DNA of 64,000 nt from Bradymonas sediminis (lineage in GTDB: Bacteria > Myxococcota_A > Bradymonadia > Bradymonadales > Bradymonadaceae), in contig NZ_CP030032.1 in assembly GCF_003258315.1 (NCBI RefSeq), forward strand, positions 1,526,001 to 1,590,000, in the 5' to 3' direction. Below, piece after piece: positions 9,127 through 21,411 of the stretch. Both the position numbers and the translations under genes were made by a program. The notes beneath the pieces are model-generated. The model made no database searches. It had not been told where the DNA came from and saw nothing but the letters and a program-made list of their open reading frames with translations. The first letter of the stretch is position 1. Every line of letters begins with the position of its first letter.

Positions 9127-10641
9127 ATGAACCATCTTAGCCTCTACGGTACCTCGCTCGCCCTGCTCACCGACCTCTATCAATTGACGATGGCGCAGGG
9201 CTATTGGAAGCAGGGGATGACCAAGACCGACGCGATCTTTCATCTGAATTTCAGGAAACCTCCATTCGGCGGCGGTTATGCGGTGGCGGCGGGGCTGAAG
9301 ACGGCCGTTGATTATATGCTCAAATATGAGTTTCAGCCCGATGATATCGAATATCTTGAGGGGCTTCGCGCCGATGATGACGAGCCGCTTTTTGACCCTG
9401 AGTTTTTGAAGTTTTTGGGGGAGATGAAGTTCTCCTGCAGCGTGGACGCGATGCCCGAGGGGAGCATTGTCTTCGGGCATGAGCCGATGCTTCGCATCGA
9501 GGGGCCGCTGATCCAATGCCAATTATTGGAGACCGCGTTGCTCAATATCATCAACTTCCAGACGCTTATCGCGACCAAGGCCGCGCGGGTTTGCCTGGCC
9601 GCCGAGGGTGAGCCGGTGCTGGAGTTCGGGTTGCGCCGGGCGCAGGGGATCGACGGCGGCATGGCTGCCTCGCGCGCCGCGTTTATCGGTGGCTGCTCGG
9701 CCACCTCCAACGTGCTCGCCGGCAAGCTCTTTGGCATCCCGGTCAAGGGTACGCACGCGCATTCCTGGATTATGAGCTTCGACTCCGAGATCGAGGCGTT
9801 TCGGGCCTACGCCGAGGCGATGCCCAATAATGTCGTCTTTTTGGTCGACACCTACGACACGATTGAGGGCGTCAAGAACGCGATCATCGTGGGCGACGAG
9901 ATGAAGAAGCTCGGCCATAAGGCCGCCGGCATTCGTCTGGACTCCGGAGACCTCGCCTGGCTCAGCATCCAGGCGCGCAAGATGCTCGATGAGGCGGGCT
10001 TTGAGGACACCGCGATCGTCGCGTCGAATAGCCTCAATGAGCGCACCATTCGCTCGCTTAAGGAGCAGGGTGCGACCATTGGGGTCTGGGGCGTGGGCAC
10101 GCATCTGGCGACCGGGTGGGACCATCCGGCGCTGGGCGGTGTGTATAAATTGTCGGCGGTGCGCGCCGAGGGCGGCGAGTGGAAGCCGAAGATTAAGGTG
10201 AGCGAGCAGCGGGTGAAGATCTCGAACCCCGGCCGCATCCAGGTGCGCCGATTCTGGCGCAATGAGCCGAGCCGCTTCGGGGGCAAAGGCGAGTTTATCG
10301 GCGATATGATCTATGACGAATTTATGGGCGAGCCGCAGACCAATATCATCGTCGACCCGCTCGATAGCACGCGCCGAAAACAGCTCGAAGGCTCCGGCTC
10401 CGACTTGCTCAAACCGATCTTCCGCGACGGCGAGTTCGTGGGCGAGGAGCACGTCAAAGACGACCTCTACGAGATTCAGGAGCACGCGCGCTATATGCTG
10501 TCGTATTTCGATGACAGCATTAAGCGCTTCGAGTATCCGCATCAATATCCGGCCGGCCTGGAGAAGAGCCTGCACGACCTCAAGACGAAGCTTATCATTG
10601 AGGCGCGCGGGTTTGAGGATGATACCTCCACCACCTGGTGA
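9127..10641 (+). CDS. pncB: Nicotinate phosphoribosyltransferase PncB
   Basis: Makes nicotinate mononucleotide from nicotinate and PRPP (Preiss-Handler salvage). Seen: [19 protein letters not shown] at the N-terminus, [16 protein letters not shown], then [20 protein letters not shown] carrying the catalytic region, [33 protein letters not shown] and GVGTHLATG. Its 504 residues match the long bacterial/eukaryotic form. No strong ribosome-binding site precedes the ATG at 9127. It is the last gene before the MoxR operon (54-nt gap) and adds to the NAD genes in this window (nadAB, pnuC, nadR). Confidence 0.95.
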
Positions 10642-10695
10642 TAGGGTTCGCGTATAAATTTAAATGCCATATATCGATAATGTGACGGTCGTACG

Positions 10696-12282
10696 ATGAG
10701 TCAATCGCATAGCGCAGACCAGGTCTCCCAGGCGCCGACGCGCCCGCCGAGCGCGGGGGCGTCTGACGCCGCTGAGTTCGACGTCGCCGACCTCTACCGG
10801 GACGCCTCGGCGGTAACTGCCTCCGAGGCGTCCACCAGCGCCCACGATGAGAAGCTGAGGCAGGCGTATTTTTGGGTCGTCAATCACGGCATAATCAGCC
10901 CGTTTTACGATATCGAGTATAACGACGCGCCGGCCCAGTCCTATAGCTTCGGGGACCAGAAGGTGCGGGTGACGCTGCCCAGCGAGCAGAGCTATTCGAG
11001 CTATGTGCTGCTGCCGCTGTTGAACCTCGCGCTTCGCCGGCGATGTTTGCTGGTGGGCGGGCCGGGGCGCGGCAAGACCGTCATCGCAAAATTGATGGGG
11101 ATTTTGTCGGGTTATAGCCTGACCGAGATTCGCCAGGGCATCCAGCACGGCCAGCCGCAGATGACGGTCGCCGACCTGTTGGGTAACCCGATCCCCTCGA
11201 CGCTGATGTCGGCCGAGACGATGGATGAGGTGCGCATCGCCTGGCGCAAATGGCTGAGCATGCGCATCAAGATTATCGACGAATATAACCGTATCCCGAC
11301 GCGCACGCAGTCCGCGCTGCTCACGGTGATGGCCGATAATTACGCCGAGATTTACGACCAGGTCTATGAGTGCCCGGAGGCCGCCTGGTACCTGACCGCC
11401 AATGATGATGCAGGCGGCGGGACCTATCAGGTGATCGAGGCGCTCAGCGACCGCATCGACGTAGTCGTGAAGGCGCTTCATTTCAATACGCGCTTTCTCG
11501 ATGACCTGGTGCTGCGCATCGAAGAGGGCGTGCGGCCGGAGACGATGGTCCCCGAGGAGATCATCTTCACGGAGGCCGAGTTTGAGGAGATGAGCCGCCA
11601 GATTCGCAAGGTGAAGTTGCCGCGAAAGCTAAGGCGTCGCTTTGAGTTTTTCGCCAGTCATTTCGAGTTCTTCGAGCCGGGGGCGCGCCAATTCGAGTAT
11701 ATGACCAAGGATACGGTAAAACTCACGGATATCGAGCTGCAGTCATTGGCCGGTGGCGACAGCGGCAAAGATGGTGTCGCGGATCTGGGGAGCCAGACGC
11801 GAAACGGCCTGTCGGTGCGTGCGCTGATGACCTGCATCGCGTTTATGAAGGGCATGGCTTATTTCCGCGGCGAAGACACGGTGTCCTACGAGGATATGCG
11901 CCAGATTCTGCCCTTCGTGCTGCATGATAAGCTCGTGCAGGAGCCCGATTCCCCGTATTTTGAGCAGACCAATCATGGGGCGCTTCGCACCGATAAGGTG
12001 AGCTGGATTCGCACGCTTTTGGACCTGTCGAGTCAGGAGTTTGAGCGCCTCAACCTGGACGCAGACGACCCGGTCGGCGCGTTCGAGATCGAGTTTGAGA
12101 AGGGCCTGGAAGATGTCAGCGCGCGCGAGGTTCGAAAGCGTATGGTGGCCATCGAGCGGGTGCTCAAGAAGTGGAGCGACGGGGGCAAGCTCTACGGTCA
12201 TATGTTCGACGATATTCTTAAATTAAAATACCTGCACCAGCGCTATACGAATTATCTGAGGTGGCTTGAGTGGAAGACTTAA
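10696..12282 (+). CDS. MoxR-type AAA+ ATPase (first gene of the metallopeptidase-VWA operon)
   Basis: A 528-residue cytoplasmic ATPase. Walker A GGPGRGKT at residues 121-128, Walker B IIDEYNRIP from 193, sensor-1 YLTANDDAGGGTYQ near 232-244 and an Arg in SDRID near 253 follow the MoxR pattern of remodelling ATPases. An N-terminal extension of about 90 residues and a C-terminal 200-residue helical region (rich in DDILKLKYLHQRYTNYLRW-like sequence) are specific to this protein. Family knowledge: MoxR ATPases usually work with VWA proteins encoded nearby, which activate or assemble client proteins. The three-part arrangement is met here, since VWA proteins follow in the same operon. The next gene overlaps its 3' end by 13 nt. 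It lacks a clear ribosome-binding site at ATG 10696. Confidence 0.9.
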   Translation: MSQSHSADQVSQAPTRPPSAGASDAAEFDVADLYRDASAVTASEASTSAHDEKLRQAYFWVVNHGIISPFYDIEYNDAPAQSYSFGDQKVRVTLPSEQSYSSYVLLPLLNLALRRRCLLVGGPGRGKTVIAKLMGILSGYSLTEIRQGIQHGQPQMTVADLLGNPIPSTLMSAETMDEVRIAWRKWLSMRIKIIDEYNRIPTRTQSALLTVMADNYAEIYDQVYECPEAAWYLTANDDAGGGTYQVIEALSDRIDVVVKALHFNTRFLDDLVLRIEEGVRPETMVPEEIIFTEAEFEEMSRQIRKVKLPRKLRRRFEFFASHFEFFEPGARQFEYMTKDTVKLTDIELQSLAGGDSGKDGVADLGSQTRNGLSVRALMTCIAFMKGMAYFRGEDTVSYEDMRQILPFVLHDKLVQEPDSPYFEQTNHGALRTDKVSWIRTLLDLSSQEFERLNLDADDPVGAFEIEFEKGLEDVSAREVRKRMVAIERVLKKWSDGGKLYGHMFDDILKLKYLHQRYTNYLRWLEWKT

Positions 12283-13367
12283 GCGGGGCCGACATCGATC
12301 GCGGCGCGCCGCGGGTTTGCGCGGCGCTGGCCGACGCCCTCAAGCGCGACCGGGATGCGTATAACGCGCGTTTTGCCCAGGCGCGCAGGCGCTGGCGTCA
12401 CCTCGATGGCGGCGCGTTCGCCGAGCATCTGGCGGACAATCTGAGCCCGATTGTCGACGCGGTGGCGGCTGTGCAGCCGGCGCGTGTCGATGCGGTGGTG
12501 CAGGGTTTATATGGGCTCTCGCTTCAGTATGTGGCGCGTCATTGGCTGGGGCCGAAGAGTCGCCAGCCCTATCTAAATCGACTGTGGCGCGAGCAACTGC
12601 CGAAGCTGTCGAGCTTTGTGGCGCAGGAGCCGGTCGCAGTGGCCCGGGCGCTCACGGTCGCGGCGCGCAGCATCGGCGGGCGATCGGAGGGCGAGAGGGC
12701 GAGGGTTTGGATGAAACGCCTCGTTGAGATCGCCGCTGCTCATCCCAAAGATTGCGCCGCCTTCGACACCGTTTTGGATGTCGGTAAGGTCCTCGCCTGG
12801 CGCTGTGGCATGGCGCATTATCGCGCCAGCGCGCTCGCGGTATGGCGTGGGTTGAGCGACGAGTTGCGCTACCAATCACTTATATTATCGCCGCCAGATG
12901 ATGGGGCGTTGCTCGATGTGGCGACGCGCCCCGGGCTTGATGCGCTCGACGCGGCGTTTGCCAACCCGTGGTTTCATCCTGCCAGGCATCGTCCCGGTGC
13001 GCTGCGCGTGAGCGAAGAAGTGCCTGATGCGTTGTCGATTCAATCGGTTGGGGGATTTGCGGGCTTTGGCTACGACTTCCACGCGCCGCCCCGGGTGATT
13101 GCGCTCGGCGAGGAGCTCTTCGCGGTGGATGGCGAGCGCTGGTTTCGCATCTTTGCCGACGCGTTTGGCACGAGCCTTCGGGCGGTCGAGCCTCGGGCAA
13201 ACGATGCTCCGCGCTTAAGCGACGCCGAGCTCGCGCGCCTGGAGAAATGGAAGTCCGCGGCCTTGGCGCTGGAGCCGAATCTTGGCGATGCGACCTCGGC
13301 CGCGCTGCTGCCGTCGACCCTCGCGCTCACCGTACCCCACAGTCATCGCGTCTTTTTGGTGAGCTGA
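12270..13367 (+). CDS. Uncharacterised protein linked to MoxR/VWA operon
   Basis: A 365-residue protein I do not recognise. It starts with GTG at 12270 (MEDLSGADIDRGA), 13 nt inside the MoxR gene, so translation is coupled. It is mostly helical by composition: an N-terminal Arg/Asp-rich helix (residues 15-50), a middle of repeated Ala/Leu/Arg/Trp helices (GLYGLSLQYVARHWLG, WMKRLVEIAAAH, ALAVWRGLSDE), and a C-terminal mixed region with GGFAGFGYDFHAPPRVIALG, a possible beta domain. No signal peptide, membrane helix, Walker or protease motif. Its position suggests an adaptor between the ATPase and the VWA-peptidases, comparable in role to the associated third component of MoxR/VWA ternary systems (inference). 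Confidence 0.75.
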   Translation: MEDLSGADIDRGAPRVCAALADALKRDRDAYNARFAQARRRWRHLDGGAFAEHLADNLSPIVDAVAAVQPARVDAVVQGLYGLSLQYVARHWLGPKSRQPYLNRLWREQLPKLSSFVAQEPVAVARALTVAARSIGGRSEGERARVWMKRLVEIAAAHPKDCAAFDTVLDVGKVLAWRCGMAHYRASALAVWRGLSDELRYQSLILSPPDDGALLDVATRPGLDALDAAFANPWFHPARHRPGALRVSEEVPDALSIQSVGGFAGFGYDFHAPPRVIALGEELFAVDGERWFRIFADAFGTSLRAVEPRANDAPRLSDAELARLEKWKSAALALEPNLGDATSAALLPSTLALTVPHSHRVFLVS

Positions 13368-13372
13368 AATCC

Positions 13373-15139
13373 ATGGCAAAAACAGACCTTTTAGGCATCC
13401 ATAAACAGTGGGAAGAGGCGTGGCCAAAGGCGCTCGGCGCGTGGAGCGACTTCACCAAAATGCAGCGGCCGATCTGGTGTTTTTCGCCCGAAGAAGAGCG
13501 AGAGGTTGGGCTTAGGGGCTCGTTCGCGGCGATTCGCCTGCTCGACCATAAGGTGATGATCAGCTTGTCTCAGATCGCGGAATATCAGCTCGAAGACTAC
13601 GGCGCGGAGATCCTCGCCCATGAGATCGGCCATCATGTCTACGCGCCGGCGAACCTCACCGACCATGCTCGGCTGTTGGCGCGTCTTCGCGCGGGGCTTG
13701 GGTCTAACGTGGAGTTTGCCGGTTTGATCGCCAATCTCTATACCGACCTGCTCATCAATGACCGATTACAGCGCGACGTCGGCATGGATATCGCGGGGGT
13801 CTATGCGAAGGTTGTCGCCCACAGCGGCCCACCCGAGCAGCCGCTGTGGCGGCTGTATTACCGCACCTACGAGGTGCTGTGGAACCTCGAGCCCGGGACC
13901 CTGGTCAGCGGCGAGGTTGAGCCGGGCATCAACCTCGACGCAACCCTGATGGCGCGGCTGATTCGGGTCTATAGCAAATATTGGCTCGAAGGGGCGGGGC
14001 GGTTTGCGCTGCTCTGCCTGGATTATTTGAAGGGGTTTCCCCCGGCGCCGGCGTCGCTCGAGGGTGTTTGGGTGACGCTCGACAGCCAGGATGCCGGCGA
14101 AGGCGGGGTGATCCCGGACGGCATCGCGCGCGAGGAGGAGGGCGAGGGTGGCGGGCTTGTGCACCCGCGCCTGGACCCCGAGCTCGGCGGGCTTGCGCCG
14201 CGCAGCTCAAAGGAGAAGTCGCCCGGCAGCCGCGACGGGCGCGAGGAGGACGGTGGGCAAAAAGGGCGATTTCGCGCCCCCGCTGAGTATATCGAGCTGA
14301 TGAAGAGCATCGGCGTTGAGCGCGATTCCAGTGAGATCGTGATTCAATATTATAAAGAGCGAGCGCGCCCTCATTATATTAAATTTCCCACCGGAAGGAT
14401 GCCCGTCGAGAACGAGCCGATTTTCGAGGGCGTCGAGCCCTGGGAGCTTGGCTCACCGGTGTCGCGCATCGATTGGGTGGAGAGCGCTGTGCGCAGCCCT
14501 TATATCATCCCCGGGGTCACGACCGTCGAGCGGACCTATCGTCAGGTGCGCAGTCCCGAGGCCGAGACGCGCCCGGTCGACCTCTATTTGGGCATTGATT
14601 GCTCGGGCTCGATGAATAACCCGAGCCGTCGCTGCTCTTATCCGGTGCTCGCCGGCGCGATTATGGTGAGCGCGGCGATGCGCGCGGGCGCGCGGGTGAT
14701 GAGCGTGCTCTCCGGGGAGCCGGGCGAATATCTGTCGAGCGACGGGTTTAGCCGCGACGAGAAAGAACATTTGGGCGTGCTGACCTCGTATCTAGGAACC
14801 GGTTATTCTTTCGGCGCTGAGCGGCTTAAGGAGGTTTTCGTCGACAAGAAAGCACCCGAGCGCGCGTGTCATATTCTGCTCCTTACTGACGCTGATATCT
14901 TTCATATGTTCGACCAAACTCCGAACGGCTGGGAGATCGCAAGAATCGCCGCCGAGCGCGCAGGCGGTGGGGCGACTTGTGTCCTGGAGATTCGCTATCC
15001 GGACTCCTGCGCCGAGCCCCTCGCGCGCCTTCGTGAGATCGGTTGGACGCCGTATTTGGTGAACGATCAGGAGGGTGTGGTGGAGTTCGCGCGCCAATTT
15101 AGCAAGGCGCATTATGAGCGAAACGGGAGGCGACGATGA
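13373..15139 (+). CDS. HEXXH metallopeptidase-VWA fusion protein, intact copy
   Basis: A 588-residue two-domain protein. N-terminal domain: HEIGH at residues 83-87 within EILAHEIGHHVYAP, the zincin motif, followed at 121-132 by NLYTDLLINDRL, whose Asp could be a third ligand. C-terminal domain (about 400-588): a VWA fold with MIDAS DCSGS at 409-413, Thr at 476 in LGTGYSFG and Asp at 506 in LLLTDADIF. A Glu/Gly-rich charged linker (about 245-300) joins them. The start at ATG 13373 aligns with the second copy of this protein. The architecture recalls the DUF2201 family (metallopeptidase-like plus VWA-like), often found next to MoxR ATPases. The start is 5 nt after the preceding gene. No secretion signal, so a cytoplasmic regulated protease or chaperone partner is likely. 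The target is unknown. Confidence 0.88.
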   Translation: MAKTDLLGIHKQWEEAWPKALGAWSDFTKMQRPIWCFSPEEEREVGLRGSFAAIRLLDHKVMISLSQIAEYQLEDYGAEILAHEIGHHVYAPANLTDHARLLARLRAGLGSNVEFAGLIANLYTDLLINDRLQRDVGMDIAGVYAKVVAHSGPPEQPLWRLYYRTYEVLWNLEPGTLVSGEVEPGINLDATLMARLIRVYSKYWLEGAGRFALLCLDYLKGFPPAPASLEGVWVTLDSQDAGEGGVIPDGIAREEEGEGGGLVHPRLDPELGGLAPRSSKEKSPGSRDGREEDGGQKGRFRAPAEYIELMKSIGVERDSSEIVIQYYKERARPHYIKFPTGRMPVENEPIFEGVEPWELGSPVSRIDWVESAVRSPYIIPGVTTVERTYRQVRSPEAETRPVDLYLGIDCSGSMNNPSRRCSYPVLAGAIMVSAAMRAGARVMSVLSGEPGEYLSSDGFSRDEKEHLGVLTSYLGTGYSFGAERLKEVFVDKKAPERACHILLLTDADIFHMFDQTPNGWEIARIAAERAGGGATCVLEIRYPDSCAEPLARLREIGWTPYLVNDQEGVVEFARQFSKAHYERNGRRR

Positions 15140-15735
15140 GGCAGGGACCGCCCATTCAAAAGTTGACGTATCGGTTGAGCGAATGCCCGCCCAAATTCCT
15201 TAAGGAGCCTGTGCTTAAGGGGCGAGGCGAGGTGCATGTGCGCGCGGTGGTCGCCGATTTGATGGCTGAGTTTGGCGCGCCCCTGTGGGCCGAAGATGCG
15301 TTCCGGAAGTTTCAGACCAAGAAGGTCGCCAAGCGAAATTGGCTGCGCGTGGTGTTGGTGGCGTCGTGGTTGCTTCACGACCCCTGGTTTCGTGATTATG
15401 CGCGGATTGAAGGCGACACATTCGCGCCACGGGTCTTGGCGTGGCTGCGCGATGACCTCAAGGAGTTCGCCCGGCTGATCGCGGTGGAGGCGTGTGTCGA
15501 AATGCCGGACCGGCGCGAGGAATTGGCACGCCGCTGCCTGGCGGGGCTGGGGCTGATGCCGGCCGGCGAATCGCCGGCGCAGGCGGAGAATCGCCTGGCG
15601 ACCCTCGATAGCATCGCGCAGCACCGTATTCTCTTCGACACAAAAAAGCGTATGGAGCGGGCGGAGCGTTTGCGCCAGAAGATGAAAGTTCAAGAAGATG
15701 CCAGACGCGCAGCCGCGCGCGCTTCGCGGGAGTGA
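15136..15735 (+). CDS. Small partner of the metallopeptidase-VWA protein, copy 1
   Basis: A 199-residue protein without a recognised family. Its ATG overlaps the stop of the metallopeptidase-VWA gene by 4 nt (ATGA) and has GGGAGG 5 nt upstream, so it is translationally coupled. It is helical, with a Trp-rich centre (NWLRVVLVASWLLHDPWFRDY), a RREELARRCLAGLGLMP block and a basic, coiled-coil-like C-terminus (KKRMERAERLRQKMKVQED). The same blocks (NWMRVVLVATWLLYDPWFR, REELARRCLMALGLLP) recur in the protein encoded at 18989, so the two are paralogs. The strict pairing with a metallopeptidase-VWA gene suggests a dedicated subunit. Confidence 0.75.
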   Translation: MRQGPPIQKLTYRLSECPPKFLKEPVLKGRGEVHVRAVVADLMAEFGAPLWAEDAFRKFQTKKVAKRNWLRVVLVASWLLHDPWFRDYARIEGDTFAPRVLAWLRDDLKEFARLIAVEACVEMPDRREELARRCLAGLGLMPAGESPAQAENRLATLDSIAQHRILFDTKKRMERAERLRQKMKVQEDARRAAARASRE

Positions 15736-15738
15736 GCG

Positions 15739-17154
15739 ATGCTACCAGGTTTTGAGGCTTTTCAATCGCTTAATCCGCTGATTACGCGGGATGGTTATGC
15801 GTTGCTCGAGCGCCTCTACACACATCCGTGCGCGCCGCGCTGGAACGAAGTCATCGGCGACCGTTTCGTCACCGAGGACCTCGCCGCGGTCGCGGCGTTT
15901 CGGCGGCGACTGCAGCAATGGCCCGGCGCCACCGCGGGGCAACCGGCGTATGCGAGCGCGCCGCCGCCGAGCATTCTCGAGTGGGTCCAGCAGATGCGCC
16001 AGCGCTCGCCCATCTTTCGCGCGCATATCCTGGAGGGCTTTCCGCTGGCGCGCGATTGGGCCTATCTGCCGACGATGAGCCGGCGTGATATCGCGGAGCG
16101 CCCTGTCGACATCACGCCGATGGACGCGGATCTTAAGCGACTCATCGTCTACGATACCACCGGGACCACCGGGCACGCGGTCATCGTCCCGCATCATCCG
16201 CGCACGCTCGCGTTTAGCCAGGCGCTGGGCGAATACGCGATGGGTCGCTACGGCGTGCAGCCGGTGTTTGGGGCTGGCCGGGTCGGGTGCTTCAATATCG
16301 GCGCGCAGGTGAATACCTATGTCTTCGCGGCGATCTTTTCGGTCTGGGAGCAATCCGGTTTTGCCAAGATTAACCTGCATCCCAAAGACTGGTCCGACGG
16401 CGCGACCTATGAGTTCGGCGAGTCGGTGGAGCGGGCCAGGGCGTATGTGGAGGCGTTTTCGCCGGAGTTTATTACCTCGGACCCGGTGGGCATCGCCGAG
16501 ATGCTCCGCTGGGAGGTCGGCCACGGCGCCAAGGCCATCTTCTCGACAGCCGTGGAGCTCAGCGCGGGCCTCAAGGCACAGGCCGAGGCGCGCTTTGGCT
16601 GTCCGGTCATCGACTGGTATTCCATGACTGAGACGGGCCCGATCGCGTTCAGCGCGCCGGACGGCGACGGGCTTGAGATCATCAGCCCGGATATCTTTGT
16701 CGAGGCGATCGACGAAGATGGCTTTCCGGTAGGTCCCGATAAAATCGGCGAGCTCACCGTGACGGGCGGGCGAAACCCGTATCTGCCGCTGCTTCGCTAC
16801 CGCACCGGCGACTTCGGGCGGGTGGCAAATGGACGCATCCACGACCTCCATGCGCGCAAGCTCGTCTTCTTTCGTGCGGCCGATGGTGCGTTGGTCAACC
16901 CGGTCGACATCGGTCGAATCATGCGACTTCATTGCGCGTTTGCGCAGCATCAATTCGTGCAGCAGGCCAACGGTGCGTGTCGAGTGCGCGTGCGGCCGGT
17001 GCCCGGAGTCGCGGTCGACCGTGAGGGGCTTCGGCGCGAACTTGCCACGCTATTCGGTGAGGAGGTAGACATAGAGGTCATTGTTGATGAGCAGCTTGGA
17101 GATGGGCAGCCGGGTGGGAAGGTCGAACCCTATATGCAGCATGGTGAGATTTGA
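15739..17154 (+). CDS. PaaK/CapK-like adenylate-forming enzyme
   Basis: A 471-residue member of the acyl-adenylate (ANL) superfamily, closest in pattern to phenylacetate-CoA ligase/CapK proteins. Seen: the phosphate-loop YDTTGTTG at residues 138-145, SMTETGP at 295-301 (the Y-G-x-T-E-type motif), YRTGDFG at 354-360 (ATP ribose-binding Asp) and a late Lys in GGKV at 459-462 that could be the adenylation Lys. These key residues look intact, so ATP-dependent activation of a carboxylate is expected. The substrate is unknown. It lies 3 nt after the small partner gene and 62 nt before the second metallopeptidase-VWA gene, so it sits inside the duplicated module. An enzyme of this family is unusual in a MoxR/VWA operon. 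Confidence 0.85.
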   Translation: MLPGFEAFQSLNPLITRDGYALLERLYTHPCAPRWNEVIGDRFVTEDLAAVAAFRRRLQQWPGATAGQPAYASAPPPSILEWVQQMRQRSPIFRAHILEGFPLARDWAYLPTMSRRDIAERPVDITPMDADLKRLIVYDTTGTTGHAVIVPHHPRTLAFSQALGEYAMGRYGVQPVFGAGRVGCFNIGAQVNTYVFAAIFSVWEQSGFAKINLHPKDWSDGATYEFGESVERARAYVEAFSPEFITSDPVGIAEMLRWEVGHGAKAIFSTAVELSAGLKAQAEARFGCPVIDWYSMTETGPIAFSAPDGDGLEIISPDIFVEAIDEDGFPVGPDKIGELTVTGGRNPYLPLLRYRTGDFGRVANGRIHDLHARKLVFFRAADGALVNPVDIGRIMRLHCAFAQHQFVQQANGACRVRVRPVPGVAVDREGLRRELATLFGEEVDIEVIVDEQLGDGQPGGKVEPYMQHGEI

Positions 17155-17216
17155 CTCACGATGGCGTGTCTGTTTTGGGCGCGTCGCCAACTTATATTGA
17201 GAAGAGGCCGAGCGTT

Positions 17217-18992
17217 ATGTCGACCAAAATCGCAGAACTCCAGGAACGCTGGGAGGCCGCCTGGCCCGAGGCGCTGAAGATGTGGGGTTCACTTTTCGTA
17301 TTGCCCAAGCCCACCTGGCAGCTCACGGAGCAGGATAAATTAGACGCCGGCTTTGAGCTCGCCATCTGGGGGAAGCCGACGTCTTCGTGGAGTCGCGAGC
17401 CATTGGCGGAGGCGTTTGAGGGGGCGCTCGGGGTGATTCGCCTGTCTGACGGTAGCGTCGCGATAAACCTTGGAAGAATCACCGACTACGGGCTCGAGGA
17501 TAATGCTCCGGAGATCCTCGCCCACCTCATCGGCCATCATTTCTATGTGCCCGGGAATCGTGTCGATAACGCCAGGCTGATGGCGAATATTCTGGACGGG
17601 CTTCTGTCAACGAGGGGAGGGGCGCTGGCGGGGGTCACGGCGAATCTCTACGCCGACCTGCTGGTGAATGACCGGCTGGTGCGAAAATTTGGCATGAATA
17701 TGGTGGGCGTTTTTGAGAAAATGATCGCCCGGGACGGCCCGCCGACGCAGCCAATTTGGAAGCTCTATTTTCGCGCCTACGAGGTGCTGTGGGATCTTTC
17801 GCCCGGCACCCTGGCCGGCGCCGATGTCTCGCCCGAGGTCAACGTCGACGCGATTCTTATCGCTCGCCTTATCCGCCACTATCATGAGAATTGGGTCGAG
17901 GGGGGCGGGGCGTTTGCGGCGCTTCTTTTCGAATATATCTTCGGCCTAAGCTCAAGCGAAATCGCGGGCGCGCCGAGCATAATGGCGATGTTTGACTGCC
18001 TGGACGCCGGGCGAGGGGCCGATATTCCGCAGGGTTTGGCGCGCCATACGCGCAGTGAAATAGCGGGCATCGCTCATCCGCGGCGTGACCCCAGGCTTGG
18101 GGGCTTCGCTCAACTTCCGACCCCGAATGCCTATGATGTGTGGGAGTCGGGCGTCGTCGACCCTGCAAATCCGCCGGTTGATTATGAAGGTGAGGGGAAC
18201 ACCGACGCCCGAGGCACCTACCGCTCACTCGAAGCCTATTTCGAGGTGATGAAGAGCGCGCTGGCCTACGATGAGATCTGGGGACATTGGGGTAATTTCG
18301 AGGCGAAACGAAGACTGATCGTTCAATATTATAAGGAGCGGGCGCGCCCTTATATTGTCCGCTTTGGGCAGGGCGATTCGGGCGAAGATCTGGCGCGAAG
18401 ACGGTGCCCCGCAGATCTCTATTTGGGGATCGACTCCTCCCAGGCGATGCCGAGTCCGCAGCACCAGCTATCGCACCCGATCTTGGCGGGGATGGTCGTG
18501 CTCGACGCGGCGCTCGAGGCTGGCGCGAAGATCATGAGCGTGAGCTCAAGCGAGCCCAAGGTGCCCGGTTCCTCGAGCGAATATTGGATGAGCGATGGGT
18601 TTGGGCAGGATGAAGCGCAGCACCAAAGAGTGCTGAGCATCTTTGGGGGCGGTGGGTATGCCTTCGGGGTGTTGAGGCTCAAAGAGACTTTTGTCGACGG
18701 GCCGAGGCGCGAGGACCCCTGCCATATCTTGATATTTACGAATGAGCGCTTCTTCCAGATGCTCGATGAGACGCCGCAGGGCTGGGAGATCGCCCAGGCC
18801 GCAGCGCAGCGAGCTGGCGGCGGCGCGACCTGTGTGCTCACCGTATCCGAAGGCGCTGATTATGCCGCGGAGCTCGCGAGGCTTAGGAAGGTTGGTTGGG
18901 TGCCTCATCTTGCGGGCGAGACCAAAGAAATGATCGCCATTGCCCGCCAATTTAGCCGGACTCATTATCTAAACGCCTCGAGGTCGCGATGA
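17217..18992 (+). CDS. Degenerate metallopeptidase-VWA paralog (pseudo-enzyme copy)
   Basis: A 591-residue paralog of the protein at 13373. ATG 17217 aligns with the start of the other copy (MSTKIAELQERWEAAWPEAL against MAKTDLLGIHKQWEEAWPKAL). The fold blocks are kept: NLYADLLVNDRL, the YYKERARP linker and a VWA-like C-terminus. The catalytic HEIGH is HLIGH (residues 103-107, Glu to Leu). The MIDAS DCSGS is DSSQA (406-410), the Thr is replaced by Gly (GGGG, near 479) and the later Asp by Asn (FTNERFF, 509). Protease and metal-adhesion functions should therefore both be lost, yet the gene is full length with no stops. It probably serves as a structural or regulatory partner (inference). It overlaps the next gene by 4 nt. 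Confidence 0.87.
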   Translation: MSTKIAELQERWEAAWPEALKMWGSLFVLPKPTWQLTEQDKLDAGFELAIWGKPTSSWSREPLAEAFEGALGVIRLSDGSVAINLGRITDYGLEDNAPEILAHLIGHHFYVPGNRVDNARLMANILDGLLSTRGGALAGVTANLYADLLVNDRLVRKFGMNMVGVFEKMIARDGPPTQPIWKLYFRAYEVLWDLSPGTLAGADVSPEVNVDAILIARLIRHYHENWVEGGGAFAALLFEYIFGLSSSEIAGAPSIMAMFDCLDAGRGADIPQGLARHTRSEIAGIAHPRRDPRLGGFAQLPTPNAYDVWESGVVDPANPPVDYEGEGNTDARGTYRSLEAYFEVMKSALAYDEIWGHWGNFEAKRRLIVQYYKERARPYIVRFGQGDSGEDLARRRCPADLYLGIDSSQAMPSPQHQLSHPILAGMVVLDAALEAGAKIMSVSSSEPKVPGSSSEYWMSDGFGQDEAQHQRVLSIFGGGGYAFGVLRLKETFVDGPRREDPCHILIFTNERFFQMLDETPQGWEIAQAAAQRAGGGATCVLTVSEGADYAAELARLRKVGWVPHLAGETKEMIAIARQFSRTHYLNASRSR

Positions 18993-19594
18993 GCCAGGGA
19001 CCATCCATACAAAGTCTCACTCGCCGGCTTCGGGATTGCCCGCCGGAGCGCTTTTCTGAGCCCAAAAGCGCGCGCGCGAACGGCATCGCCGTCGAGGCGG
19101 TGGTCGCTGATCTGATGGCCGAACTCGGCGGTGGGCCCATCGATGCTGAAACGCGGGCCGTCTTGAGCGACGCAGCGCCCGAGGTGCGCAATTGGATGCG
19201 CGTTGTGCTGGTCGCGACCTGGCTGCTCTATGACCCGTGGTTTCGCGCGCAGGCCGACCTCGTCGGTGACCCCAGCTTCGCGGCGAGCGCGTTGCGCTGG
19301 ATGCTCGAAGACCTTAGGGCGTTGGCCGGCGTCGTCGCGGCGGACCACTTGGTCGAGGAGCCCTTCGGCCGCGAAGAGTTGGCCCGGCGCTGCCTGATGG
19401 CGCTCGGGTTGCTGCCGCTTGACGAGTCCGCCGAGCAGGCAAAGATTCGTCTGGCCAATCTCGACTCCGTCGCGCGCTATCGGGTGCTTATGGGCTCAGA
19501 GGAGTATCAAAAGACCGCCGAGCGCCACCGCCAAAGAAAGGCCGAATATGAGCGTTCATTGAGGGCTCATGCGGCGCGTTGGACGCGTGAATAG
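18989..19594 (+). CDS. Small partner of the metallopeptidase-VWA protein, copy 2
   Basis: A 201-residue paralog of the protein at 15136, with its ATG overlapping the preceding stop (ATGA), the same arrangement as copy 1. Shared blocks are NWMRVVLVATWLLYDPWFR, REELARRCLMALGLLP and a basic helical C-terminus (KTAERHRQRKAEYERSLRAH). It is the last gene of the operon, and the opposing nadR gene ends 20 nt later. It may pair with the degenerate metallopeptidase-VWA protein. Function unknown. Confidence 0.75.
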   Translation: MSQGPSIQSLTRRLRDCPPERFSEPKSARANGIAVEAVVADLMAELGGGPIDAETRAVLSDAAPEVRNWMRVVLVATWLLYDPWFRAQADLVGDPSFAASALRWMLEDLRALAGVVAADHLVEEPFGREELARRCLMALGLLPLDESAEQAKIRLANLDSVARYRVLMGSEEYQKTAERHRQRKAEYERSLRAHAARWTRE

Positions 19595-19614
19595 GCTCGG
19601 GGCAAAGCTATATA

Positions 19615-20655
19615 TTAGTGTTTTGATGCGCCCGCGGGTTTTGCCTGTGCTAAGCAGCGCTCAACGGCCGCCACCGCGCGCTCGAAGCGCTCTTCCCAAG
19701 TGCCGTGAATGTGCACATAGGGGCGGTCGTTCTCCTCAAGCGTGCGCTTGCATCGCTTGAAGAACGCGCGGCGTTTATCGTGCTCGGGGAAATAGCGCTG
19801 GTTGTCGTCGACCCAGTCCACGTCGACGTCGAGGAGCAGGGTGAGGTCGTAGGTGCGGCGCCTGGCCTGGGCGCTGACCCATTCGGGGCATTTTCCGAAG
19901 AGGACGTCGCTCCAGATCGTGGTGGTCAGGGCGTCGGTGTCGCTAAAGAGGACGCGGTTGGCGCGCGGGGCCAGGGCGTCTTCGGCGGCGGCCTGGCCGC
20001 GGGCGATGCGCTCGATATCCGGGTAGTCACAGTGGCCGTCTTTAAAGTTGAGCAGCGGGCGCGCGTATTCGTGGACGTAGACGGTGTCGAAGTGCCGGGC
20101 GAGGTCGGCGGTGAGGGTCGATTTGCCGGTGGACTCCGGGCCGAAGATGCACACGCGGCGCAAATAATAGGAGCGGACTTCGTCGGGGATAAAGCGCCAG
20201 TTTGCCATCGGGTTTTCGCGAATCGCGGTGCCGCTCACGGGCATAAGTTCGCGGGCCGGGTCGACCGGCACGAATTCGGCGTCTAGCACCTCGGCCAATT
20301 TGAAGCCGTAGTCTTCGGAGGCGAAGACCAGGTCGACGCCGTCGGGCATCGCGCTGAGCACGAGGTTGCGCCAGATGGGCCAGAAGTTGGGATCTTCGTC
20401 GGGGGTCTGCGGGACGTCGTCGGTGATATGGACGACCCGGCAATCCGGGAACATCCGCCGCATCCAATGGTAGCGAAGGGCGCCGTCGATGGGTTCGCGC
20501 TCGAGCGTACAGACTAGGATGGTGAGGTCGTCGCAGTAGTTGCGCGCGAAGTCGGCCAGGTAGCGATGGCCGGCGTGTGGGGGCAAAAATTTGCCCAGGA
20601 TCATGCCCCTTGTGCGCTCAGGGGGCGCTGATTTTCGCGATGCGTTTTCATCCAT
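19615..20655 (-). CDS. nadR: NadR-like NMN adenylyltransferase/ribosylnicotinamide kinase
   Basis: Bifunctional enzyme that phosphorylates nicotinamide riboside and adenylates NMN to NAD. Seen: the nucleotidyltransferase motif GKFLPPHAGH near residue 20, SGTAIRENP (the ISGTxIR-type motif), then a P-loop GPESTGKST starting the kinase domain and a VHEYARPLL block. There is no N-terminal DNA-binding helix-turn-helix, so it lacks the repressor domain of enterobacterial NadR. Start: ATG 20655 has AGGA about 8 nt upstream. An ATG at 20604 that overlaps the pnuC stop (ATGA) is a second possibility and would cut 17 residues before the motif. It lies downstream of pnuC in one operon. Confidence 0.9.
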   Translation of the reverse strand: MDENASRKSAPPERTRGMILGKFLPPHAGHRYLADFARNYCDDLTILVCTLEREPIDGALRYHWMRRMFPDCRVVHITDDVPQTPDEDPNFWPIWRNLVLSAMPDGVDLVFASEDYGFKLAEVLDAEFVPVDPARELMPVSGTAIRENPMANWRFIPDEVRSYYLRRVCIFGPESTGKSTLTADLARHFDTVYVHEYARPLLNFKDGHCDYPDIERIARGQAAAEDALAPRANRVLFSDTDALTTTIWSDVLFGKCPEWVSAQARRRTYDLTLLLDVDVDWVDDNQRYFPEHDKRRAFFKRCKRTLEENDRPYVHIHGTWEERFERAVAAVERCLAQAKPAGASKH

Positions 20656-21221
20656 TCCAATAGTCCTGCGATCGCCAATCCTAAGAAGACGAGATAGAGC
20701 CCGCTGGTGAGGTAGAGGCCTTTGGTCAGATACACGCCAATGGCAATGACGTCGACCACGATCCAGAAGACCCACGATTCGAGGATCTTTTTGCCCAAGA
20801 ACCACTGGGCGATCAAGCTGAGCACGGTGGTCGCAGCGTCCCAATAGGGCAGGCTCGCGTCGGTATAGGTGCTCATCGCGAAGCCCAGGCCGGCGACGCC
20901 TACCGCGCCGACCGCCCAGGCCGCGCCGAATTGAGCTGTGCTCAGCCGGGTCACCTTCGCCTTGCCTCCGTCATCCTTATCTCGCCCGCCGTTGAGCCAA
21001 TAATACCAGCCATAGATCTGCATGAAGATATAGACGATTTGAAGGCCCATATCGGAGTAGAGCTTCGCGTCGTAGAAGATGAAGATATAGAGGGTGACCA
21101 TGACCAGGCCGGTCGGCCAGCACCAGATATTCTGGCGCGTGCTGAACCAGACCGAGGCCAGGCCGGTGATGGTGGCGGCGATTTCGATGGGGCTCATAAA
21201 GCTGAGCAGGGTTTCGAGCAT
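20601..21221 (-). CDS. pnuC: Nicotinamide riboside transporter PnuC
   Basis: A 206-residue inner-membrane protein with about seven hydrophobic helices. Family blocks include WFSTRQNIWCWPTGLVMV, the YSDMGLQIVYIFMQIYGWYYW block and the C-terminal WDAATTVLSLIAQWFLGKK plus VFWIVVDVIAIGVYL. PnuC carries nicotinamide riboside by facilitated diffusion, and phosphorylation by NadR traps it. The frame is open further upstream to 21386, but that part is Pro-rich and repetitive (it is the 46-bp repeat), so ATG 21221 (MLETLLSFMSP) is chosen. It overlaps nadR, forming pnuC-nadR. Confidence 0.92.
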   Translation of the reverse strand: MLETLLSFMSPIEIAATITGLASVWFSTRQNIWCWPTGLVMVTLYIFIFYDAKLYSDMGLQIVYIFMQIYGWYYWLNGGRDKDDGGKAKVTRLSTAQFGAAWAVGAVGVAGLGFAMSTYTDASLPYWDAATTVLSLIAQWFLGKKILESWVFWIVVDVIAIGVYLTKGLYLTSGLYLVFLGLAIAGLLEWMKTHRENQRPLSAQGA

Positions 21222-21319
21222 GGTCTGTGAATCGAAGGCGTTGGGTTGCGCGGGTGTTTTGGGCGCGAGTTTGGTTGGCGTATTATGCCATGGAAAAGAC
21301 GTGGGGGTAAGGGGTGGCC

Positions 21320-21411
21320 TTGGCGGTGAGTCTTGTTCACCGGCCAGGCGAGCTGGCCGGGGTCTTTGGCGGTGGGTCTTGTTCACCGGGCAGGCGAGCT
21401 GGCCGGGGCCT
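21320..21411. repeat. Two tandem 46-bp repeats with nested stem-loops
   Basis: Copies at 21320-21365 and 21366-21411 differ at three positions. Each contains a GGTG/CACC stem and the stem CCGGCCAG-GCGAG-CTGGCCGG (perfect in copy 1 at 21340-21360; one mismatch in copy 2 at 21386-21406). On the minus strand they lie after the lipoprotein stop and upstream of pnuC, so they may terminate or attenuate transcription, or form the pnuC leader. No T-run follows. I cannot match them to the known NAD+-II riboswitch. Confidence 0.75.

Follow-up and report, generated by a model that had tools for sequence, protein, structure and literature searches.

A degenerate duplicate of a zincin-like metallopeptidase/vWA protein in a MoxR operon of Bradymonas sediminis, lacking the catalytic Glu, most of the MIDAS and a predicted pore finger

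The genome of Bradymonas sediminis encodes, within one MoxR operon, two paralogous proteins that combine an N-terminal zincin-like domain with a C-terminal vWA domain, one of which has lost residues expected to be essential in both domains and still occupies an uninterrupted reading frame. The question raised by this locus is whether that copy is a gene caught in the course of decay or an inactive protein maintained by selection. The original prediction favored the second answer and proposed an inactive scaffold, decoy or regulator of the active copy. The window, that is, the whole stretch of DNA analyzed here (64,000 nucleotides of contig NZ_CP030032.1), contains the following features:

10696..12282, forward strand: MoxR-type AAA+ ATPase (Pfam AAA_3, E=5e-9, and AAA_lid_2; canonical Walker A GGPGRGKT, Walker B IIDE)
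12270..13367, forward strand: P2, an operon protein with a homolog in the same operon slot in most related loci
13373..15139, forward strand: intact zincin-like metallopeptidase and vWA protein (HEIGHH, DCSGSM, T475, D505, finger block 341-396)
14396..14563, forward strand: predicted finger block of the intact copy, residues 341-396 (AF2 model, alignment and NorD finger position, PMC13036017)
15136..15735, forward strand: small1, a partner gene with an ATGA overlap with the intact copy
15739..17154, forward strand: PaaK-like adenylate-forming (AMP) ligase (motifs TTGTTG, YSMTE, RTGD)
17217..18992, forward strand: degenerate zincin-vWA copy, an uninterrupted ORF of 591 codons (591 aa)
17340..17402, forward strand: insert of 21 aa (residues 42-62) that is not in the intact copy, with residues 45-58 of low confidence in the model
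17523..17540, forward strand: HLIGHH, with the catalytic Glu replaced by Leu and the zinc His kept (codon alignment)
18366..18404, forward strand: junction without the finger block, directly before vWA strand 1 (model and alignment)
18432..18449, forward strand: broken MIDAS motif 1, DSSQAM (codon alignment)
18642..18668, forward strand: MIDAS Thr loop FGGGGYAFG, Thr replaced by Gly (codon alignment)
18738..18743, forward strand: MIDAS Asp replaced by Asn (TN) (codon alignment)
18989..19594, forward strand: small2, the duplicated partner gene, not degenerate

The two copies are identical at 250 of 539 residues (46%) in an L-INS-i alignment, and codon-level comparison bears out the full-length frame and each of the residue changes originally named. 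In the zincin-like domain, the catalytic Glu E83 (GAG) is replaced by L104 (CTC), with three bases different; in the MIDAS, the Gly G411 (GGC) is replaced by Q409 (CAG; three bases), the Ser S412 (TCG) by A410 (GCG; one base), the Thr T475 (ACC) by G479 (GGT; three bases), and the Asp D505 (GAC) by N509 (AAT; two bases). Most of these changes involve more than one base and are therefore not sequencing errors; together with the assembly of the genome as a single contig of 5,045,683 bases, the multi-base changes rule out an assembly or sequencing error. Residue by residue, the loss of the MIDAS that was originally described is partial: the first Asp and Ser (D406 and S408) are retained. A similar correction applies to the N-terminal block, which had been thought to stay: residues 1-60 show 28% identity to the intact copy and lie by the 21-aa insert, and what is kept are the zinc His residues H103 and H107 and the invariant N120, D124, N128 and E166. 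Near the C-terminus, the conserved F571 is replaced by Ile.

In a table of 107 family proteins from about ten phyla, HExGH and DxSxSM are present in every other member, and the degenerate copy is alone among these homologs in having lost the catalytic Glu along with most of the MIDAS. This invariance of the motif suggests that the N-domain of the intact copy is an active peptidase. The only other oddity in MIDAS motif 1 is found in L098:7947-9755, which has DSSLSM instead of DxSGSM and an intact HEIGHH. The family also includes two subtypes of the MIDAS loop, YLGTGYxFG with TDxD or SDxD and YxGGGTxFP with SDDG, which include L050, L054, L070 and L104 among others and both carry HExGHH.

In sequence searches, the zincin-vWA proteins P0001 and P0002 have no match in Pfam, NCBIfam or PADLOC, P0001 has no sequence match in PDB, and the family profile yields only weak matches against PDB (E of 0.026 and 0.16). 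Among 64 family members, 4 show weak profile matches to Peptidase_M48 (best E 0.0042) and 16 to VWA_2. In the structural comparison, the best PDB fold matches of the intact model are the vWA domains of NorD in NorQD complexes (9qhd, E=5.6e-5; 9qh8, E=8.9e-5), and the models of both copies match vWA domains. Such domains fill the Foldseek and VIA lists, in which the fold of the N-terminal domain has no independent match.

The alignment reveals a further difference between the copies. The degenerate copy carries a deletion of intact residues 341-356 and 365-396 (about 48 in total), which are nearly invariant across the family and contain a conserved motif, IPGVTTVER. In the AF2 model of the intact protein (mean pLDDT 89.9), this block consists of a strand (347-355), a helix (367-373) and a second strand (384-391), and it precedes vWA strand 1 (402-408), at the end of which lies the MIDAS DxSxS. 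These strands of the block are missing from the model of the degenerate protein (mean pLDDT 85.6), in which the vWA fold is retained (VIA Z 14.6) and the N-domain is helical. The finger of NorD, residues 403-448, reaches into the pore of NorQ, the MoxR partner of this protein (PMC13036017), and the Thr and Asp of the NorD MIDAS are residues 534 and 562 (PMC9976466). The spacing of these elements is similar in the two proteins: from the end of the finger to the MIDAS Thr there are 86 residues in NorD and 79-84 here, and from the Thr to the Asp, 28 and 30 residues, respectively. Given this spacing, the predicted structure and the fold match to NorD, we read the missing block as the likely counterpart of the NorD finger.

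As judged from the alignment, the deletion of the putative finger is a third loss, one that the original prediction did not include, and it alters the mechanism that can be envisaged by adding uncoupling from the motor to inactivity, so that the degenerate copy is probably uncoupled as well as inactive. The effects of comparable changes in NorD have been described. The T534V and D562N mutants co-purify with NorQ, and cNOR activation is abolished (PMC9976466); replacement of the finger results in weaker but still present binding, elevated ATPase activity and abolished iron insertion, and the main contact of NorD with the ring is its C-terminus (PMC13036017). By analogy, the degenerate copy resembles the D562N, T534V and finger-deletion mutants of NorD combined. 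Given its homology to an apparently intact enzyme, the missing key catalytic residues and the open frame, it can be classified, by sequence, as a pseudo-enzyme.

Is this protein, then, under constraint? Silent sites have reached saturation between the two paralogs, with a pS of 0.647 that ranks 84 of 197 when compared with intact pairs of about the same identity, whereas pN is only 0.364; the corresponding dN and dS are 0.485 and 1.36. Had the copy evolved neutrally since the duplication, the non-synonymous sites would be near saturation as well. Neutral decay would also result in equal retention at conserved and variable columns, and the observed retention is unequal: among columns at which the intact copy shares its residue with the near outgroup, that residue is also present in the degenerate copy at 78 of the 95 conserved at 90% or more and at 65 of the 140 variable ones (Fisher p = 3e-8). 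Neutral drift was simulated with 40 runs per identity level, and at levels of 80% and lower, no run kept the frame open. A simple pseudogene as the sole explanation is ruled out by the combination of the open frame, the retention pattern and the saturated silent sites. The paralog comparison thus indirectly points to purifying selection on the remainder of the degenerate protein and shows that constraint appears to have acted for most of the time since the duplication; it may have ended recently.

The latter possibility is central to the main rival explanation, namely, that the copy remained functional long after the duplication and lost its activity later, the open frame being a transient remnant. 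The degenerate copy has a branch length of 1.61 vs 0.42 for the intact copy, a roughly fourfold difference that fits relaxed constraint too, and such late-stage decay would also be compatible with the presence of the inactive form in a single genome, the joint loss of three separate functional elements and the GC3 of the degenerate gene (0.707), which is slightly under that of its neighbors. However, the frame contains no stop or frameshift, conserved columns elsewhere are still retained, the downstream small2 is conserved, and the E to L, G to Q and T to G replacements differ at all three codon bases, so that the losses are not very recent. We consider this scenario unlikely.

The fast change could also reflect neofunctionalization, whereby the copy acquired another ligand, metal or client in a role unrelated to inhibition of the intact copy. 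The new inserts (residues 42-62, 305-323 and 349-358) and the retained zinc ligands are in line with this possibility, whereas there is no positive sign of a new site and the inserts are mostly of low confidence in the model, which makes neofunctionalization quite unlikely in our assessment. Finally, the frame might be kept open mainly for the sake of translational coupling to small2 and not for the protein itself. Indeed, the stop codon of the degenerate gene and the start codon of small2 share bases (ATGA), and small2 retains 21 of 27 conserved residues, compared to 23 of 27 in small1; coupling, however, demands an open frame and not conserved amino acids, and the retention strongly tracks the conservation class, so that we give this explanation very little credence.

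With regard to the origin of the pair, the two copies are sister to each other in the tree with 100/99 support. The small1 and small2 proteins are identical at 96 of 199 positions (48%), with dN of 0.48 and dS of 1.48, and the match of these values to those of the long pair suggests that the zincin-vWA gene and the small gene were probably duplicated together. In relatives, the second copy is absent from the corresponding position: in G014, a family relative, NadR comes immediately after the ligase gene, and in G116, a class relative, NadR and PnuC abut the ligase gene tail to tail, whereas the sequence analyzed here has the degenerate copy and small2 exactly between the ligase and NadR. By this gene order, the degenerate copy and small2 are a derived insertion that arose by lineage-specific duplication. 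Exactly one copy is present in each of 50 genomes from other collections, mostly from other phyla (for G425, L123, the two rows represent parts of a single frame), and plasmids, searched as well, gave no match; an ancient paralog family is ruled out by these single copies and by the sister pairing.

Of the genomes searched, 26 from the order, which include no congener, and 377 from the phylum, only this one was found to have two distinct copies, and the inactive form is likewise limited to it. Thus, the expectation that a degenerate copy would always be paired with an intact one across genomes did not hold, and the pattern originally associated with simple decay, a copy intact in close relatives and broken by stops in others, was not seen.

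The operon itself is widespread. The order MoxR, P2, zincin/vWA, small gene and PaaK-like ligase is kept in most of 80 loci from many phyla, ranging over Flavobacterium, Janthinobacterium, planctomycetes, acidobacteria, spirochaetes and Chloroflexi; a literature search found no description of this five-gene operon (L048-L127). Some variation is seen: in L074, L075, L078, L081, L093, L099, L102, L103 and L112, about 1 kb of extra sequence separates the zincin-vWA and small genes, with room for one gene, and in L142 (G015), from the same taxonomic family, the small gene and the ligase are located about 4 kb from the zincin-vWA gene, that is, the operon is broken up. Profile search with P2 detected no match in Pfam or NCBIfam, and the match of the PaaK-like ligase to NCBIfam NF045666 (E=1.4e-21) is under the curated cut-off.

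At positions 9127-21386 of the window, NAPRT is directly upstream of the operon, and NadR and PnuC are directly downstream. NadR homologs are present in the flanks of 44 of the 80 loci and PnuC in those of 31, a distribution that spans about ten phyla; 8 of the 9 NadR homologs inspected contain the NMNAT motif GKFxPxHxGH. A link of the MoxR/zincin-vWA system to NAD salvage is therefore a reasonable lead from gene neighborhood; our search of the literature turned up no paper that treats MoxR together with NadR and PnuC. This context bears on the possibility that the degenerate copy is a conflict decoy, a dead protein that baits an invader protein targeting the active copy, the role suggested earlier for the inactive effectors found in MoxR-vWA ternary systems (PMC7159879). 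The operon, located beside NAD-salvage genes in many phyla, reads as metabolic, and the accessory proteins show no supportive match to conflict components in Pfam, NCBIfam or PADLOC; in particular, no convincing profile match to a VMAP, iSTAND, FtsH or beta-propeller component was detected in P2 or the small proteins. A decoy role thus appears highly improbable.

Of the original proposal of a selected inactive scaffold, decoy or regulator, the loss at both sites and the constraint on the rest of the protein stand, and the choice among these roles is a matter of interpretation. We give an even chance to the reading in which the degenerate copy is a non-catalytic, motor-uncoupled binding subunit that acts as a holding platform or a brake for the intact copy. 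The intact family would consist of a ring motor, a vWA protein that presents the client and is fused to a zincin-like domain, and accessory proteins. After duplication, one copy of the vWA/metallopeptidase partner of the motor would have become a pseudo-enzyme with its folds and binding surfaces kept: peptide hydrolysis would be lost through the Glu to Leu replacement, the MIDAS-dependent grip on the client through the MIDAS changes, and the transmission of the motion of the MoxR ring with the finger. The genome encodes a single close full-length MoxR of this type (the next best has 28% identity, E=4.5e-8), and this one motor would then serve both copies. The degenerate copy retains most of its C-terminal helix and might use this helix to dock on the MoxR ring or else occupy the client or the small protein; sites occupied without processing or remodeling would make it a platform or a brake on the intact copy. 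We infer the losses of activity, the retained binding and the brake role alike. Points that speak against this reading are the occurrence of the copy in a single genome, its roughly fourfold faster evolution and the replacement of the conserved F571. The more elaborate version, a selected separation-of-function subunit of an NAD-salvage-linked MoxR/vWA machine that would tune or block the motor or client on which it docks, is tentative and, taken as a whole, rather doubtful.

Under the reading as a motor-uncoupled binding subunit, changes that researchers of MoxR/vWA systems have introduced one at a time, namely, finger deletion, MIDAS Asp to Asn and loss of the Thr, are apparently combined here by nature. 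The degenerate copy and its intact twin, with a shared motor, would provide a ready control pair for a vWA partner that binds without pulling, and the operon, if its link to NAD salvage is true, would extend MoxR/vWA machines to that pathway.

Several known systems invite comparison. Phage CobT-like/VWFA proteins give near full-length matches in the BFVD structure library, but with high rmsd and 10-14% identity, that is, the architecture alone is alike. The pseudopeptidases ADAM7 (HQLGH) and ADAM29 (HHLGH) similarly keep the zinc His in an intact frame and have lost the general base Glu (PMC11266112); they belong to an unrelated family and context, however, and here the MIDAS of the vWA domain and the predicted motor-coupling element are lost as well. 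The MoxR-vWA ternary conflict systems (Kaur et al. 2020, PMC7159879) share the combination of MoxR, vWA and accessory genes, some of their vWA domains lack the MIDAS Asp, and inactive enzymes among them have been proposed to be decoys. In contrast, the MoxR protein described here has the canonical GGPGRGKT and not the GXXXTAKS of the FtsH and beta-propeller types, and its neighbors are a ligase, a metallopeptidase partner and NAD-salvage genes. NorD and, more broadly, CbbO and ViaA resemble the present system in the MoxR neighbor and the vWA fold; the intact copy has a C-terminal vWA domain with a MIDAS, a predicted finger directly before vWA strand 1 and, compared to NorD, similar MIDAS spacing. 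The differences from NorD are the N-terminal domain with a zincin-like HExGHH motif, the lack of a detectable sequence match and, in the degenerate copy, the absence of both the finger and the complete MIDAS DxSxS-T-D.
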